Below, one piece after another: positions 21,695 through 30,225 of a stretch of DNA of 37,264 nucleotides. The number at the start of each line of letters is the position of its first letter. The stretch's first letter is position 1. The translations under genes were made by a program, and so were the position numbers. Source of the stretch: a virus; IMG/VR virus record IMGVR_UViG_3300022905_000027, positions 1 through 37,264 of that record. One strand, 5' to 3'. Under the pieces are notes generated by a model. That model made no database searches. It saw nothing but the letters and a program-made list of their open reading frames with translations, and was not told where the DNA came from.

Positions 21695-22163
21695 CTTCGT
21701 TTTCGCCTTTGATCATTTTCAACAAGTCTGCAGTTGAAACAATTAAGTTGTTATTTGTAACATTAGTTTGAGCTGCTTCTTTAGGCCCATTGATTTCTTC
21801 TTTTACAAATCTCTTTTTTGAAGACATATCAGCAAAATCTTTATTTGCATCAAGCACTGTTTTCATTAAAGTAGAAACAACTTCGAATGCTCTTGGGTGC
21901 TCAGATTGCTTTGCAATTTCAAGCATTTCGCGCATAGCTTCTTCGCCAGTTTCCATAACACCTTGAATATTTTGGCGAGCAGTTTCTAAGTCTTTGAGAT
22001 TCTCTTCTTGAGTTTCAAAGTTATCAATTAATGCCGGCGGACTTGATTCTTCTATTTCAGCAGGAGGATTATCAAGCTTATCATTTTCTTTTGGTGTATC
22101 TTGCTCAACTTCTGATAAGGGTCTAATACCTAGAGCAGAAGAAATTTTATCATCATTGTTCAT
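21687..22163 (-). CDS. 16: Terminase small subunit, gp16-like
   Basis: A 158-residue protein (T4 gp16 is 164) that regulates packaging by the large terminase. The N terminus is acidic and disordered (PLSEVEQDTPKENDKLDNPP). The central region is helical (NLKDLETARQNIQGVMETGE, then AFEVVSTLMKTVLDANKDFA), as expected of the oligomerising coiled-coil hairpin, and a tail ends in LLKMIKGENEDG. Identity rests on this pattern and on its position next to gp17 and gp15. It overlaps gp17 by 8 bases and gp15 by 1 base. Confidence 0.9.
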   Translation of the reverse strand: MNNDDKISSALGIRPLSEVEQDTPKENDKLDNPPAEIEESSPPALIDNFETQEENLKDLETARQNIQGVMETGEEAMREMLEIAKQSEHPRAFEVVSTLMKTVLDANKDFADMSSKKRFVKEEINGPKEAAQTNVTNNNLIVSTADLLKMIKGENEDG

Positions 22164-24253
22164 TATACATCCTCAAATATTGTAATAATACCCCAATTGT
22201 CATCAAATTCAATGTCAGTATATGGTACAGAAGCAGATGCTGGATCTGAAATTGTAACCACAGGAGCTGAAGAATAACCTGCACCTGGATTTGTTATCGT
22301 AATTGCAGATACATCTCCGTGCGAATCAATTGTTGCATTAGCGGTTGCTGTAATCGCTGCGGCGACATCAATGGTCACATTTGCAGTTTCATAAAACTTT
22401 CCGCTACTAGTAATATTTATTCCAGTTACAACACCGTCTGTAAGAGTAGCTGTGGCGGTGGCTCTGAAGCTCGCAGGAGTGTCGTCAGGTGCCGTAAAGG
22501 TAATAGTTGGTGTTGTATTTGCGTAATTTGCACCACCATCTATAATTGTAACTCCAGTCACTTCGCCATCAGTAACTTGAACATTTGCAGTTGCTGGCTG
22601 CTTTTCAAAATTGCCAGTAAAATCAGATCCTGTTTGTGCTACGGTTGGTACTGTGTATGATCCAACAGCTGTAAGACCAGTGATTTGCGTAATGATTACG
22701 TTATCAATCGATCCTTTGAATGACGGTGTTGCTCCACGTTGGCCAGCAATAACCTCAACACCACCACCTAGAATAAAACCTTGTGGTGCGTTTCCGCCTT
22801 GATCTACTACGCCGTTAATTAACCATCTTGCCGTACCACCAAAGTGTTCTAATCTAACATGATTCCATTGATTCAAGTTTAGAACTTCAGGTGTACATCG
22901 AATTGGTGGGCTGTTGAAATTTGGTCTATAAACGATTTCTGCGTCAGGCTCTATTTCAAATCGCATATCATTGCCATCCCAATGGATAACGTTATGAACA
23001 CCTGAAATTGGAACTTCTTCTGGGTAAATCCAAAATTCAACTGCGAAGCCTTGGCCAGCGGTAATAAGGTTTGTCGCCATTGTATGGATTAAAACTTCAT
23101 CTGTGTCTGCTTCAAAATATAAAGCATCTGTGCCGAATTTAATGTATGGCGATTTATCTGGTGGCTCGCTAATCGTAACTGTTGCTGTGTTATAGTAGCG
23201 ACCTGCATCTGTTACAGTAACTGAAGTAATGTCACCGTTTGCTCCTATTACTGCTTCACCAAGAGCTGTATTTGCTGAAAGATCAGGATCTGAAATTAAT
23301 ACGTTTGGAGTAGAACTATAATATCCTCCTCCTTCAATAACGTTTATTGAAGAAACTTCTGTATTGGTGATTGTTGCGTTTGCCGAAGCATTGGTTGTTA
23401 TTGGCGCCGCAATTGTAACGGTTGGCGCAGTGGCATAACCTTGGCCGTCATTAACTACTGTAATTGTATCGACTCGCCCATTTACAAGTGCTGCTGTAGC
23501 AATTGCTTCTTCGCCGCGAAGTGTAATAGGATTACCGTTTGAATCCATTCCTGGCTTAACAATAACTTTTTCTTCTGGTGTTGTATTAGCAGTAGTGTTG
23601 GTATACATGTCTGCTTCAATAAATTTAATGACTTTACGTTTCTTTTCAGGACCAAAATAAAATCCTTTAAGAGTAAAACTCAAAGTATAAAGAATAGATT
23701 GACGAGTTTCAAAATCGTTTTCATACAGATCTTCTGTAGTAATGCTGTTTAAAATAACCGGAATATCAATAGGATCTAAATCCGGAATCATTTTAGCAGA
23801 CACAGTCCAGTCTGGAGTAAAGAACGGTAAAATCTGTTCCATTAATTGCGTAGCATCTTCTTGATATTTTGTCATAATATATAATTGAAAATCGATATTA
23901 TAAGGTACAGAAGCATATAAGAAATTACGAGAATTTTCAGATTCTGCCTTTGCATCTTTACGCATTTTCATAGTAGACGCAATTTTACGAGATGGGTCGT
24001 ATGTAATACTTGCAATTTCAAAAGACATGCGAGGCAAGCGAATCGCAGTTCTGCGACTATTCAACAAATCAGGATCTTGATTTAGTCGAGCCAAAACCTT
24101 TTGAAAAGGTGCATAAGATAGAGGCACAAGCATAGATTGTGTTGTAGTACCTGCATTATCTTTTCGAGTAATCTTTAACTGATTAAAGATAGTACCAAAC
24201 AGTGCTACATATTTTCTTGTTGATTCATTGTAGAAATAATTTGCAATTGCCAT
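22163..24253 (-). CDS. 15: Tail sheath terminator gp15 with large C-terminal extension
   Basis: A 696-residue protein. Residues 1 to ~222 match gp15, which caps the tail and joins it to the neck: the start NYFYNESTRKYVALFGTIFN, then LPRMSFEIASITYDPSRK and IDFQLYIMTKYQEDATQLME followed by QILPFFTPDWT. T4 gp15 is 272 residues, so about 470 residues are extra. The extension has three ~18-residue repeats of the form GxGY-x-x-x-P-x-V-x-I at 267-284, 306-323 and 347-364. A jelly-roll (LamG/concanavalin-like) domain lies at about 368-525 (FAVEFWIYPEEVPISGV, LNQWNHVRLEH, IDNVIITQI), followed by three further repeats at 570-589, 614-631 and 653-671. The extension probably projects from the neck or tail top and may bind glycans. 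Position between gp14 and gp16 confirms the gp15 call. Confidence 0.88.
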   Translation of the reverse strand: MAIANYFYNESTRKYVALFGTIFNQLKITRKDNAGTTTQSMLVPLSYAPFQKVLARLNQDPDLLNSRRTAIRLPRMSFEIASITYDPSRKIASTMKMRKDAKAESENSRNFLYASVPYNIDFQLYIMTKYQEDATQLMEQILPFFTPDWTVSAKMIPDLDPIDIPVILNSITTEDLYENDFETRQSILYTLSFTLKGFYFGPEKKRKVIKFIEADMYTNTTANTTPEEKVIVKPGMDSNGNPITLRGEEAIATAALVNGRVDTITVVNDGQGYATAPTVTIAAPITTNASANATITNTEVSSINVIEGGGYYSSTPNVLISDPDLSANTALGEAVIGANGDITSVTVTDAGRYYNTATVTISEPPDKSPYIKFGTDALYFEADTDEVLIHTMATNLITAGQGFAVEFWIYPEEVPISGVHNVIHWDGNDMRFEIEPDAEIVYRPNFNSPPIRCTPEVLNLNQWNHVRLEHFGGTARWLINGVVDQGGNAPQGFILGGGVEVIAGQRGATPSFKGSIDNVIITQITGLTAVGSYTVPTVAQTGSDFTGNFEKQPATANVQVTDGEVTGVTIIDGGANYANTTPTITFTAPDDTPASFRATATATLTDGVVTGINITSSGKFYETANVTIDVAAAITATANATIDSHGDVSAITITNPGAGYSSAPVVTISDPASASVPYTDIEFDDNWGIITIFEDV

Positions 24254-24255
24254 TC

Positions 24256-24936
24256 TTATGTATCCTGAGTACTAATGCTTTCACTAAATGGATCTATTTC
24301 AGAGAAATCAATGATATCATCAGCAACATCTTCAAATACTAAGTTTTGCGCTAATGGATCTGTCTCTTCAAGATCTTCAAGTGTGGAAACAGTGTCTGAT
24401 GTGGTTTTAACGTCATCAAAATAATGGTCAATTTCATAGATGCCAGTATCGAATCTTTCGTTTGAGAACTCCATAAGCTCGCATTTAATATCATAAACTT
24501 GCAATTTACCAGTCTGATAGAATACACTCTCATGCTCAACATATGTAATACGATACATTTTTCGATTCAATGGAAGCCAGATGAGATCATTTTCTCTTGG
24601 TCTAACCTTAGTTTGATTTGTTCTAGTAACGTATCTTTCAAATGTTCGTATTGCTACCGTAAACGTAACTTGGTCTCGTATTTCTAAACCAAACTTGGAT
24701 AGGAAATCACCTTCGCCTTCAAACCCATCTACATTCTTAACATAAGCTTCGAACTCGTACTTCTCGTCATAGAAAGGCATATCATCTTCATTGAAGACTT
24801 CGTCTCTGTTGTTAAATTCTCCAGAAATATATGTAACATCAAGACCATAGATCTTAATCGATTCAATTACTAAATCATCAATTAAGTTCTGTTCGTTGAA
24901 GTTATTATAATTTCTAAAGTACGCGCTAGTGGCCAT
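24256..24936 (-). CDS. 14: Neck protein, gp14-like
   Basis: A 226-residue protein (T4 gp14 is 256) of the head-tail neck. Landmarks: YFRNYNNFNEQNLIDDLVIE with SIKIYGLDVTYI, FGLEIRDQVTFTVAIRTFER, RPRENDLIWLPLNRKMYRIT and VEHESVFYQTGKLQVYDIKC, then ELMEFSNERFDTGI, all typical of gp14. The last ~50 residues are acidic. The gap to gp15 is two bases and to gp13 three bases, so gp13, gp14 and gp15 are translated as one unit. Confidence 0.93.
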   Translation of the reverse strand: MATSAYFRNYNNFNEQNLIDDLVIESIKIYGLDVTYISGEFNNRDEVFNEDDMPFYDEKYEFEAYVKNVDGFEGEGDFLSKFGLEIRDQVTFTVAIRTFERYVTRTNQTKVRPRENDLIWLPLNRKMYRITYVEHESVFYQTGKLQVYDIKCELMEFSNERFDTGIYEIDHYFDDVKTTSDTVSTLEDLEETDPLAQNLVFEDVADDIIDFSEIDPFSESISTQDT

Positions 24937-26049: not shown

Positions 26050-26631
26050 TTAGATAATTTCAGCAAAGCCTATACCATTGCTTACAAGTTTAACGCCGTT
26101 GCTTTCTATTTTAATATTTGTACCATTAGATTCTGGGCCCGTAAATCTAATTCCATTAGCGCCATATCTATCGTAGATATGAGTATCCCAGTTTAATCCT
26201 TTACCAGCTAATGAAAAGCTCGTTGCAACTGAAACAGGGCCTTCTGAAAATACATAAATGTTTGTAGTAGATGGAAATTCAAGTAAAAGATCTGCATAGG
26301 CATGAGTAGTTACATAGCCAGGAACAGTATCTAATGCAAAATCAATAGAATTATTTGCATCTAAATATCTTTGTACACCAAATTGAATAGTACCAGATAC
26401 ACTAAAACTAGTACTTAAATCGGTGGCTGACGCATACAGCGTGGGTGTTTCTATTAAAGACGTACCTATAAGTGGTAATGTATATGGCTGTAATTCACCA
26501 TAGATAGGTAATACGCCGGTGATCGATGTAATAGTATCAATTTGTACGGACAACGGCCCTTTTACAGATACTACAGCACCAGCAATAAAATTAAAGTCTA
26601 ATGTAGATGTAAATGCGCCATTAGCAGACAT
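26050..26631 (-). CDS. Putative virion structural protein (193 aa)
   Basis: A 193-residue protein of Ser, Thr, Gly, Val and Ile-rich beta-type composition with no charged helices. Segments such as FNFIAGAVVSVKGPLSVQID, LYASATDLSTSFSVSGTIQF and GNGI-type turns near the C terminus (NIKIESNGVKLVSNGIGFAE) suggest a beta-helix or beta-sandwich virion protein. There is no signal peptide. It is placed between two other small beta-rich proteins and the neck gene block, with an 18-base gap upstream. Family not recognised; a fibre or decoration role is inferred from composition and context only. Confidence 0.55.
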   Translation of the reverse strand: MSANGAFTSTLDFNFIAGAVVSVKGPLSVQIDTITSITGVLPIYGELQPYTLPLIGTSLIETPTLYASATDLSTSFSVSGTIQFGVQRYLDANNSIDFALDTVPGYVTTHAYADLLLEFPSTTNIYVFSEGPVSVATSFSLAGKGLNWDTHIYDRYGANGIRFTGPESNGTNIKIESNGVKLVSNGIGFAEII

Positions 26632-26648
26632 GGGGCTTGTCCTTTAAA

Positions 26649-27056
26649 TTATGCCCCACCTGCCGTAATGGTAAATGCAGTAATGTTGATTTGCTGACCT
26701 GTTGCAATATTAGTATTATCTAATTGCATATCACCACCTGCACCTGTTGCAGTCACTGTTCCTTGCATATGACATACTGTACCGTCAGATTGGTGCATAC
26801 GGAAATAGCTTGCTGTACCCGAAGCATCTGCAGAAAGATCCTGCCATGTGCCAGATAAAGTGATTTGGCCGCTTACTGGATTGTTAAACCAATCGGATGG
26901 TAAAATCATAGTAGCAAGAACAGTACCGGTATTTGCAGTAGCGCAATCTGATGGGACTGCTCCTGAGTGTACTGTTAAAATAGGTGAAGCACCAACAGTG
27001 GTTTCAATGGCTTGCAAGGTTCCGTTTCTTACATCCGTTGATAGTTGAAAAGCCAT
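26649..27056 (-). CDS. Phage virion-type protein (135 aa)
   Basis: A 135-residue protein that resembles a small family present in many phages and prophages. It opens MAFQLSTDVRNGTLQAIETT then VGASPILTVHSGAVPSDCAT. The pattern is: an initial R-N-x-x-L-x-A helix, an S-G-A-x-P-x-(D/N)-C-A loop, a T-G-T-(V/L)-L-A strand, and FRMHQSDGTVCHMQGTVTAT later. Members are usually annotated only as phage structural or hypothetical proteins. An exact late promoter (27093-27100) and GGAG lie upstream, so it probably heads the late transcript that includes 26050-26631. Confidence 0.65.
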   Translation of the reverse strand: MAFQLSTDVRNGTLQAIETTVGASPILTVHSGAVPSDCATANTGTVLATMILPSDWFNNPVSGQITLSGTWQDLSADASGTASYFRMHQSDGTVCHMQGTVTATGAGGDMQLDNTNIATGQQINITAFTITAGGA

Positions 27057-27161: not shown

Positions 27162-27923
27162 TTAGTTTCTTCTCTCAATATCATCTTCAGACAGCATGTC
27201 ACCCATCCAAACTTCAATTACTTTACAAGGATAGTTGCCGACGTTTGTCGCTTTATGCCACGATTTCTTGGGAATGTCGATGCTTTCGCCAGATTTGTAA
27301 ACTTTCGATGTTTTATAACCATTGCTAAATTCAAGAGACATTTCTAAATTACCGTCAACAATATGCCAATGCTCAGATCTTGCAAAATGTCTTTGATCGC
27401 TTAATGATTTACCAGGATCAATAGTAAGTTCTTTTACTTTCCAATGTCCATTTTGATCTAGATCTTTGTATCTACCCCACAATCTCTCTGTTGTTGGTTT
27501 ATCCCATTCGGATAGAATCCAAGAAGAGCTATTCTTTTTATCCTCTCCTCCTACGCCAAACACAAAGTTTACATCATCAAATACCATTTCTGGTATGTTT
27601 TCTTTTGTGCGATCACCACCATTTGCAAAAATGATTTCAGAATTATTGGGAAAATACTCTTTAATATGCCGAATAGCATCAATGGCTGAATCATCATCGT
27701 CATTAAAATCAAAGGCATAACCTACTGATTTAATATTATGGACAATATCTTTACGTTCCTCCCAAGGCATAAATGGCTTACCTTTTTTACGAGTTAACCA
27801 TGCATCACTATTTACACCTACACAAAGAATATCACCAAGTTCTTTTGCTGCATTAAAATAAGCAATATGTCCAGAATGTAGAGGATCGAATCCTCCTGTA
27901 ACAATAACAACTCTCATTCCCAT
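27162..27923 (-). CDS. Nucleotidyltransferase-cupin fusion enzyme
   Basis: A 253-residue two-domain protein. The N-terminal half (VVIVTGGFDPLHSGHIAYFN, with the HSGH signature, then ELGDILCVGVNSDAW) is a cytidylyltransferase-like domain of the kind found in HldE/RfaE and glycerol-3-phosphate cytidylyltransferases. The C-terminal half (about residues 165-245) is a single cupin (HFARSEHWHIVDGNLEMSLE, IDIPKKSWHKATNVGNYPCK), similar to the isomerase part of mannose-1-phosphate guanylyltransferase/isomerases. A role in activating and converting a sugar phosphate for a surface glycan is plausible. The ATG at 27923 is chosen because it overlaps the upstream stop (TAATG) and has GGGAGAAG before it; a start at 27950 would overlap further. 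Confidence 0.75.
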   Translation of the reverse strand: MGMRVVIVTGGFDPLHSGHIAYFNAAKELGDILCVGVNSDAWLTRKKGKPFMPWEERKDIVHNIKSVGYAFDFNDDDDSAIDAIRHIKEYFPNNSEIIFANGGDRTKENIPEMVFDDVNFVFGVGGEDKKNSSSWILSEWDKPTTERLWGRYKDLDQNGHWKVKELTIDPGKSLSDQRHFARSEHWHIVDGNLEMSLEFSNGYKTSKVYKSGESIDIPKKSWHKATNVGNYPCKVIEVWMGDMLSEDDIERRN

Positions 27924-29182
27924 TAAACTTCTCCCATCATATAATCCCAAGCAAAGTTTACTTGATTTGCAGTTTTCATTTGTGGATTATTATTTGCAAT
28001 ATTTGGATGAACCCACCAATCTTCATAAGGAGACTTGGGATCAACAGCAACATTTGGTACTAATAATATATATCCAATTTGCTTAAGTATCTTTCTTGAT
28101 TCGTCTCTAAACTCTTCACCCCACCAAATAGCATTGTGCTGAAATTGTATTACATTAAATTCGTGTTTATCAAATGGAATGTTCTTTAAACAATCTAAAG
28201 ATGCGTGTTCTGCATTAATTCTTAAAAAGTCAATTTGTTGTTCAAAGCAATTTTGTTTAAACAACGCTGTGTAATCTTGATTTGCGCCATCAGCTAAAAT
28301 AACCGGTGTCTTTCTTTCTCTAGAAAATATATGACACATACGTTCGCTATTATCTAGAGATATACCTTTCCAATTAAACTTTTCTTCAAGCAATTTTGTA
28401 TTATTGTAAAGCTTAGGATGACCAGATCCTATTTCAATGAAAGTACCATTTTTCTTTCCATCTAAACAAGACAATACAAACATATCTTGAAAATGTCTTG
28501 AATAGTTACGGTCTACTGATTCTATTCCATTAAATTTAAATTTATACATATCCCAGTCAACATGATGATAAGTTAATGTGCTAGGATAGCCGTGCCATTT
28601 ATCTAATAATTCGGTAGCTTCTGCATCTAATTCTGCTGATAAGTTATTTTTATATTTTAAATTAAATGCTAAATTCTTTGAAGAGTCTCTACCGTCAGTT
28701 TTCCACTTAGCTTTTGCATATAATAAACGCAAAGCATTCTCGCCCGGATACTTTAAATCATTATCTGGGGGATCAAGCGCTGGAATATCTGATACTGATG
28801 ATTCGATATGAGAAATACCAATAGCAGCATACATCATGCTTTCTCGCCAATCATCTCTTTCTTGTTTAAATTTAGATAAGAAATAGTAAGCCTCTGGTCT
28901 TTCAGGCATTGTTTCAATGGCAATTTTAAGTAAGCCTTCTGTGCTATGATTACGATTTTCATTACGATCATAGATGAATGCGCCGAGAATCATAGACTTA
29001 TATTGAATCCAACGCTCACCGTATTCGTCCTCATTCGCCATGTCAGCAGCTCTAAGATACCAACTAAAAGCGCCAGCACCCTGTTCTAAGCGATCGTATT
29101 CTCGTGCTAACTTATAGATTTTATATGGATTCTGGTAGTCAAGCACCACATCATTTAAAAGATTCATATTTGTAAATTTCAT
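27923..29182 (-). CDS. FkbM-type methyltransferase with helical repeat N terminus
   Basis: A 419-residue protein. Residues ~20-190 are helical and TPR-like (YKIYKLAREYDRLEQGAGAF, SWYLRAADMANEDEYGERW, TMPERPEAYYFLSKFKQERD), as is common in phage and bacterial glycan-modifying proteins. Residues ~225-390 form an FkbM-like SAM-dependent methyltransferase: SRHFQDMFVLSCLDGKKNGT leads into FIEIGSG (248-254, SAM-binding loop), then KGISLDNSE (~272-280) and QIDFLRINAEHASLDCLKNI, the acidic region of the family. It is translationally coupled to both neighbours by 1-base overlaps. The likely substrate is a sugar or glycan made with the adjacent enzymes; it is not known. Confidence 0.75.
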   Translation of the reverse strand: MKFTNMNLLNDVVLDYQNPYKIYKLAREYDRLEQGAGAFSWYLRAADMANEDEYGERWIQYKSMILGAFIYDRNENRNHSTEGLLKIAIETMPERPEAYYFLSKFKQERDDWRESMMYAAIGISHIESSVSDIPALDPPDNDLKYPGENALRLLYAKAKWKTDGRDSSKNLAFNLKYKNNLSAELDAEATELLDKWHGYPSTLTYHHVDWDMYKFKFNGIESVDRNYSRHFQDMFVLSCLDGKKNGTFIEIGSGHPKLYNNTKLLEEKFNWKGISLDNSERMCHIFSRERKTPVILADGANQDYTALFKQNCFEQQIDFLRINAEHASLDCLKNIPFDKHEFNVIQFQHNAIWWGEEFRDESRKILKQIGYILLVPNVAVDPKSPYEDWWVHPNIANNNPQMKTANQVNFAWDYMMGEV

Positions 29183-30225
29183 TATTCAGTATCCGTTAAA
29201 AATTGCAAAAACACACTTTGGGGAATTCTTAAGATAAAACTCGCGTTGTCTTGAAAACCAAAAGAAACCAAAATATCATCTCCAAGTATCGTCATGCCAG
29301 TCACAAATTCAATGTTATAATCTGTGTTTGTTACATGATCCCAATATGTACCAAGAAAATGAAACTTGCGTGAAGCATGAATTAAATTCCAATCATTATC
29401 CCAAATTATGACACGGTGGCCATAATCACCATCTTTACGACCGAATGGATCTCTAAGAAGATTTGTTTCATGAATAAAAGCCATGCGCTGATTATCATTA
29501 ATTCGTAGAACTTGAGAACCGCCTCTAAAGTCTTTTGCGAAAGGTTTACGTTCACCTTCATCTACAAAGACTTCAGTTGTTGTGCCTTCTTCAATGTCAA
29601 ATTGAACAACTTGAGTTGGGTTACACCATTTAACAAAATGATATGGCATATCCAAAATAGGCATCCAATTCTTTTCACAATAGCTTCCGTCATTTCCTGG
29701 TGCGGGAATTGGATGTCGAGAAAGTTCCTGCCATTCTTGAGCTTCTTCATTAAACTCTATATGACAAAGCTCCATTCTTCCTTTACCTTTATCATCATAG
29801 CAATCTCTACGAACTCCACAAAGGTACAATTTACCATCCCACTCGAATAAACGAGCATCTTCTAATCCAATAAAATTCCAAGTTGGATCAGTATCTAATT
29901 TCATGTTAACACGTCCGGCACTGACGAGATTTAAGTTCCCGTCAAGTTCACACATTACATTGTGAGTTCTAAGTGTTACGTCGTTTTCAGGATGAATATA
30001 GACAAGCGGTCCCCACTGATGGGGGAACTTTTTTCCTTCACTATGATAGAGAATATAGTTTACGTGTCTAACGTTTATAAGAATCTTTCCATCATGTATA
30101 AAGATAGATGGATTCATAATTCCTGTTTCATTACCTAAAACAGATTTTGGTAATAAAATAGGATGTAGCGATCCGCCTCTTTTTAAAGCGTAGGTCGCAA
30201 GACCACCCATATGCAAATCGTGCAT
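29182..30225 (-). CDS. GH130/GH43-like five-bladed propeller enzyme
   Basis: A 347-residue protein that looks like a five-bladed beta-propeller glycoside hydrolase or phosphorylase. Blade-type motifs are GIMNPSIFIHDGKILINVRH (residues ~35-54), TWNFIGLEDARLFEWDGKLY (~114-133, with the G-x-E-D-A-R signature of GH130-like proteins), CEKNWMPILDMPYHFVKWCN and FVTGMTILGDDILVSFGFQD near the C terminus. Such enzymes cleave or phosphorolyse mannosides and related glycans; some phage relatives may be glycosyltransferase-like. It is coupled to the methyltransferase gene and has GGAGGTGAC upstream of the ATG. Substrate unknown. Confidence 0.65.
   Translation of the reverse strand: MHDLHMGGLATYALKRGGSLHPILLPKSVLGNETGIMNPSIFIHDGKILINVRHVNYILYHSEGKKFPHQWGPLVYIHPENDVTLRTHNVMCELDGNLNLVSAGRVNMKLDTDPTWNFIGLEDARLFEWDGKLYLCGVRRDCYDDKGKGRMELCHIEFNEEAQEWQELSRHPIPAPGNDGSYCEKNWMPILDMPYHFVKWCNPTQVVQFDIEEGTTTEVFVDEGERKPFAKDFRGGSQVLRINDNQRMAFIHETNLLRDPFGRKDGDYGHRVIIWDNDWNLIHASRKFHFLGTYWDHVTNTDYNIEFVTGMTILGDDILVSFGFQDNASFILRIPQSVFLQFLTDTE

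Follow-up and report, generated by a model that had tools for sequence, protein, structure and literature searches.

A repeat-LamG-repeat insert in the tail terminator protein of a marine T4-like phage: a probable neck device for surface attachment, or a collar

In T4, gp15 (also named tail terminator or tail sheath stabiliser) is present in six copies that form the ring capping the tail, and gp14 is hexameric as well. The gp15 gene of a marine T4-like phage, found in the IMG/VR record IMGVR_UViG_3300022905_000027 (the window, meaning the whole stretch of 37,264 nucleotides analysed here), encodes a much longer protein, which makes us ask what has been added to it, where, and what could it do on the neck of the virus? 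T4 gp15 (PF16724; PDB 4huh, 9mkb) resembles the window protein in its core domain, in the gene order 13-14-15-16-17 and in an acidic C-terminal region, but it has 272 amino acids and no insert, and alignment confirmed that it holds nothing comparable to the added region.

The identity of the protein is clear. A single open reading frame fills the gene interval exactly (table 1), and residues 6-229 match T4-gp15_tss (PF16724) with an E-value of 1.8e-68 and phrog_227 with 3.5e-76, which bears out the original prediction that the first ~222 residues are gp15. The gene overlaps the downstream terminase small subunit gene by one base and is separated by two bases from the upstream gp14 gene, so that it is flanked by the two genes expected for this family; the contiguous order gp13, gp14, gp15, gp16, gp17, gp18 matches that of T4. 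By terminase comparison the nearest cultured relatives are the Sinorhizobium phages phiM12 and phiN3 (60% identity), and the window therefore comes from a T4-like phage allied to the phiM12/phiN3 group.

Table 1. Neck genes of the window and the parts of its gp15 (positions of the window; all on the minus strand)
Feature	Residues	Position	Strand	Basis
gp13 neck / head-tail adaptor, 247 aa		24940..25683	minus	phrog_211
gp14 neck / head closure protein, 226 aa, insert-free		24256..24936	minus	PF11649, E 3.5e-30
gp15 tail terminator / tail sheath stabiliser gene, 696 aa, internal insert		22163..24253	minus	
gp15 core	1-229	23567..24253	minus	PF16724; best structural match T4 gp15 4huh/9mkb
First hinge, low confidence	203-245	23519..23647	minus	pLDDT <50 at 202-242
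Repeat 1	247-285	23399..23515	minus	profile search
Repeat 2	286-324	23282..23398	minus	profile search
Repeat 3	328-366	23156..23272	minus	profile search
LamG / concanavalin-like jelly roll	369-530	22664..23149	minus	PF13385, Foldseek
Linker from LamG to repeat 4	531-550	22604..22663	minus	
Repeat 4	551-590	22484..22603	minus	profile search
Repeat 5	595-633	22355..22471	minus	profile search
Repeat 6	634-673	22235..22354	minus	profile search
Native gp15 C-terminal tail (PYTDIEFDDNWGIITIFEDV)	674-696	22166..22234	minus	common to insert-free gp15s

Further upstream on the same strand, two small open reading frames of beta-rich appearance precede gp13 (26050-27056); the one of 135 amino acids matches phrog_3758 (virion structural protein, 1.2e-31), and that of 193 amino acids gave no Pfam or PHROGs match. 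Beyond them (27162-30225, minus strand) lie, as judged by eye, a nucleotidyltransferase-cupin-like protein, a 419-residue methyltransferase-like protein and a 347-residue protein resembling a glycosidase or glycan-acting enzyme, possibly a sugar-modification cluster.

The added residues had been taken for an extension of some 470 residues, and in this respect the original prediction had to be corrected, as it counted the native tail in: about 428 residues (246-673) are inserted in frame inside gp15. In the gp15s of 270-272 amino acids a PG-rich segment (e.g. QPGLTANNEPTT) is followed almost directly by PYxxIDFDDDWGIIT, whereas in the window ~428 residues separate the two. Where insert-free relatives read VTVQPGLTANNEPTTVLANTVPYSQIDFDDDWGIITV, the window reads VIVKPGMDSNGNPITL, the insert, and then SVPYTDIEFDDNWGIITI; residues 677-696 are the native C-terminus that insert-free gp15s also have, and the tail YTDIEFDDNWGIIT is retained behind the insert as in the 270-272-residue relatives. 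For the window, a C-terminal add-on is rejected because the native tail persists behind the insert. An assembly error or fusion artefact is likewise rejected, since numerous independent contigs encode this architecture at full length, some of them matching the window exactly and others sharing as little as ~46% identity with it.

The insert consists of six repeat units of 39-40 residues each, three before and three after a LamG domain. When a profile built from five repeats was used to find the sixth, every repeat was recovered at 29-47 bits, and none of 2000 shuffles per unit attained the real score. Residues 395-521 match Laminin_G_3 (PF13385; E 1.6e-11), at 45 bits where the Pfam cut-off is 27.6. 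The repeats and the LamG domain of the original prediction all stand far above chance. The Pfam scan of gp15 found no family covering the GxGY repeats, and in a Foldseek search against the PDB, repeats 4-6 had no match with E <0.6, the query being a model of moderate quality (pLDDT 81, with three poor models out of five). A weak sequence match links the GxGY repeat to a region of the tailspike Dpo31 (E 4e-4).

The structure prediction called for with the original prediction was made with AlphaFold2 (34 sequences) and gave beta-rich repeats on either side of a jelly roll. Each modelled repeat comprises a beta hairpin and a short strand, and the LamG domain forms a jelly roll with pLDDT mostly 72-93; the values are ~85-97 across most of residues 247-670. 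The repeats score better within the whole-protein model than when repeats 4-6 are modelled separately, which hints that the six pack together. At both junctions of the insert, residues 202-242 and the tail at 674-696, the pLDDT falls below 50, and the insert is therefore predicted to be a set of folded domains on flexible tethers, in a monomer model whose overall pTM of 0.47 means that domain orientations are not to be trusted.

Homology to T4 gp15 supports the proposed location on the neck, where the window protein would likewise form a hexameric ring capping the tail tube and sheath. In the T4 virion the C-terminal region of gp14 (178-256) contacts gp15 203-245 extensively (PMC12270204). The hinge of the window protein at 203-245 aligns with this T4 contact segment for the gp14 C-terminal arm, and the insertion point lies just after it, following residue ~245. 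A module of the same kind is found in gp14 of Synechococcus phage S-SSM7 (762 amino acids), where repeats-LamG-repeats lie within the gp14 C-terminal region, between the core and the conserved end DFTERNPFGEF. Given the T4 contact, the gp14 and gp15 insertions share the same inter-ring arms; judged by T4 homology, both insertion sites would fall within the C-terminal arms linking gp14 with gp15.

The idea that the module is special to gp15 therefore fails, as it is present in gp14 of S-SSM7-type cyanophages, whose metagenomic relatives share the repeat-LamG-repeat arrangement, and of a second group. S-SSM7 gp14 resembles the window gp15 in that the module sits in an arm of a neck protein whose native C-terminus is retained, and its LamG domain is related to that of the window (~25-27% identity); it differs in the protein that carries the module and in the LamG domain being behind the second of six repeats and not the third. 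The layout of this type is thus 2-LamG-4, with a weak first repeat that is marginal by profile (E 0.2-0.4) and found in a minority of members, and that of the second group is 4-LamG-2. The symmetry that had been proposed holds for the window, with three repeats on each side, but 3+3 is only one of three layouts (3+3, 2+4, 4+2). When weak units are included each layout totals six repeats, which is suggestive only. In the cyanophages Syn33, P-HM1 and SynMITS9220M01, gp14 carries two to four repeats without a LamG domain. In the set of distinct gp14-gp15 pairs for which both genes were complete, sampled by similarity to carriers and not at random, LamG is located in gp15 in 33, in gp14 in 57, in neither in 85 and in both in none; this mutual exclusion may partly follow lineage.

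Insert-bearing gp15s (66 full-length open reading frames, some from overlapping loci; 33 distinct pairs) have 695-707 amino acids and invariably the 3-LamG-3 layout, which persists though the LamG identity to the window falls to 27%. Among viral contigs, the top full-length LamG relatives are without exception gp14 or gp15. On the tree of the gp15 core the state of the insert changes five times, at least three of these changes being forced by well-supported branches, so by sequence comparison the insert is gained or lost several times; relatives with a 77% identical core have no insert. Insert-free gp15s of 301-307 amino acids nest among the carriers and are apparent losses. Pelagibacter phage Mosig, whose gp15 (532 amino acids) has close relatives of 268 amino acids on the core tree, represents a separate gain among pelagiphages, and its 90%-identical relatives are without the extra region. 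Mosig gp15 is like that of the window in the succession of repeat, large middle domain and repeat, and differs in that the addition is attached behind the conserved DDDFG motif. The middle domain resembles LamG by eye; Pfam and profile comparison did not support this, and it was counted as repeats.

Which function could be proposed for such a module? The structural neighbours of the LamG domain in Foldseek are LG domains of agrin, laminin and neurexin and the pentraxins (E ~1e-5), together with domain 4 of the arabinanase AbnA, and as far as the predicted fold goes they are compatible with a binding domain. LG domains can have proteins as well as sugars as ligands, or serve as spacers. In ten close pairs, few in number and some highly diverged at synonymous sites, pN/pS is 0.085 in the gp15 core, 0.093 in LamG and 0.14-0.16 in the repeats. 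LamG is maintained by purifying selection about as strong as that on the core. Diversifying selection on LamG, which would be a sign of receptor tracking, was considered and is not seen at this value.

As related phages have the same kind of module in the neighbouring neck protein, we propose that the insert probably serves the viral neck for surface attachment or as a collar. The more specific version, to which we give an even chance, is a flexibly tethered six-copy ring of surface-displayed, lectin-like neck arms acting as a collar- or whisker-like adhesion device. Each gp15 copy would contribute six beta repeats that form a compact body with one LamG domain, held by flexible segments on both sides just beyond the gp15 segment in contact with the gp14 arm. 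If the ring is hexameric as in T4, six such arms would surround the neck, in phages without T4-type fibritin whiskers, and could bind host-surface glycans or polymers weakly and multivalently. Such binding would keep the virion close to the cell until its tail fibres attach, as with Hoc and as proposed for the collar spikes of XM1. We infer the presence of the insert in virions, its outward exposure, the glycan ligand and the adhesive function itself. On the one hand, adhesion is favoured by the LamG family match and by the likeness of its fold to ligand-binding LG and pentraxin domains. On the other hand, LamG is under strong purifying selection, for which a fixed partner is at least as good an explanation as a changing cell-surface receptor, the repeats are common in other structural proteins, and LG domains can also bind proteins or act as spacers.

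Bracing of the neck or holding of the tail fibres is the main rival to adhesion. As a clamp or collar, the insert would brace the stopper-terminator-sheath junction against mechanical stress, with LamG as a protein-protein packing domain, and this reading, although unlikely, deserves serious attention: in phage 812, decoration proteins bridge the adaptor-stopper and stopper-terminator junctions and in their absence the neck is often deformed or broken, and Milano and 7-7-1 possess neck-encasing collars. The fact that gp14 or gp15 alone suffices is what would be expected when one junction is braced, and LamG is conserved like the core in close pairs. However, the predicted hinges are flexible at both ends of the insert, the insert is often lost with the rest of the locus unchanged, and close relatives with the 77% identical core manage without it.

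The arms could also replace fibritin, retaining the retracted long tail fibres or aiding their assembly as T4 whiskers do. T4 whiskers bind domain III of gp13 (PMC12270204), and alignment with T4 gp13 shows that gp13 of the window, S-SSM7 and Mosig is without the segment holding this domain. A search of 12 records, some of which are fragments, detected Fibritin_C in the T4 control alone and in none of the marine or phiM12 records. Both results fit a replacement, but HTVC008M and Melnitz, marine T4-likes without Fibritin_C, lack the insert too, and we consider the explanation improbable. The Pfam scan of the window gp15 gave no Fibritin match; the insert may be whisker-like in action and is not classed as fibritin. 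Least probable of all, and in our opinion very much so, is a selectively near-neutral accretion, in which cassettes of repeats and LamG recombine into tolerant linkers of virion proteins. The same repeats are found in many structural proteins of marine T4-likes, largely baseplate wedge proteins, and may be generic building blocks; their gain and loss is also repeated. Nevertheless, the pN/pS of 0.09-0.16 across the insert reveals purifying selection, which already disfavours this reading, and 3-LamG-3 is retained even in the lineages with the most diverged LamG.

Returning to adhesion, the proposed module can be compared with other accessory neck appendages. T4 fibritin whiskers and collar (gpwac) and the XM1 collar spikes, for which host sensing has been proposed, are encoded by separate genes and are not fused to gp14 or gp15. 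The collar gp13 D domain of Agrobacterium phage Milano and the neck decorations of phage 812 are also beta-rich, and the D domain resembles glycan-interacting proteins; they are separate proteins, and the portions of these reports that are available mention neither LamG nor GxGY repeats. A mechanical role is suspected for the Milano collar, and the decorations of phage 812 seem to strengthen the neck. Phage Ig-like domains (e.g. Hoc) are similarly modular, dispensable accessories of virion proteins thought to bind carbohydrates; they have a different fold, and the part of the survey available to us does not list the tail terminator among the carrier classes.

LamG domains on phage virions are known in general, and the repeats are common in marine T4-like structural proteins; a jumbo-phage survey places Laminin G3 domains in general terms on tail fibres "and other virion components". 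The original prediction had asked whether an identical extension was widespread and already described. It is widespread in marine T4-likes, but the open-access literature, from which subscription journals are largely missing, yielded no description of a LamG module in either of the two ring proteins or of its either-or occurrence, and nothing specific on LamG in cyanophage or pelagiphage neck proteins. More tentatively, we suggest that the neck module is transferable: a beta body of six repeats, in which one LamG domain may occupy any of several repeat junctions, would be carried by exactly one of gp14 and gp15 and would provide a six-arm organ for adhesion or sensing, separate from the tail fibres, the baseplate, the head decoration and fibritin. 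If this is true, marine phages bear a second attachment or bracing device in the ring proteins connecting head and tail, the gp14-gp15 arm junction is a site that tolerates large added domains, and the wide length variation of both proteins in marine T4-likes and their relatives is accounted for; S-SSM7 and Mosig (a related form) are the cultured phages to look in.

The survey of lengths proposed with the original prediction gave 255-707 amino acids for gp15, with and without insert, against 272 in T4, and 217-767 for gp14, in most of the full-length sequences examined from marine T4-likes and relatives. The gp15-like protein of Campylobacter phage CPt10 (456 amino acids) and gp15 of Vibrio phage V09 (434 amino acids), both BFVD matches, also exceed T4 gp15 in length, and tail terminators may carry extra domains more widely. 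In the 301-307-residue gp15s nested among the carriers (L039-L043, L045-L052), the conserved tail is followed by ~30 or more extra residues that end in a DLxSGYxIDDLN-like motif and are possibly a remnant or another small addition. Finally, the contig IMGVR_UViG_3300022921_000002 (221,447 bases; L035, L065) holds two different gp15 genes near its ends, a truncated repeat-bearing one at one end and an insert-free one of 271 amino acids near the other, and possibly represents two phage genomes joined in assembly.
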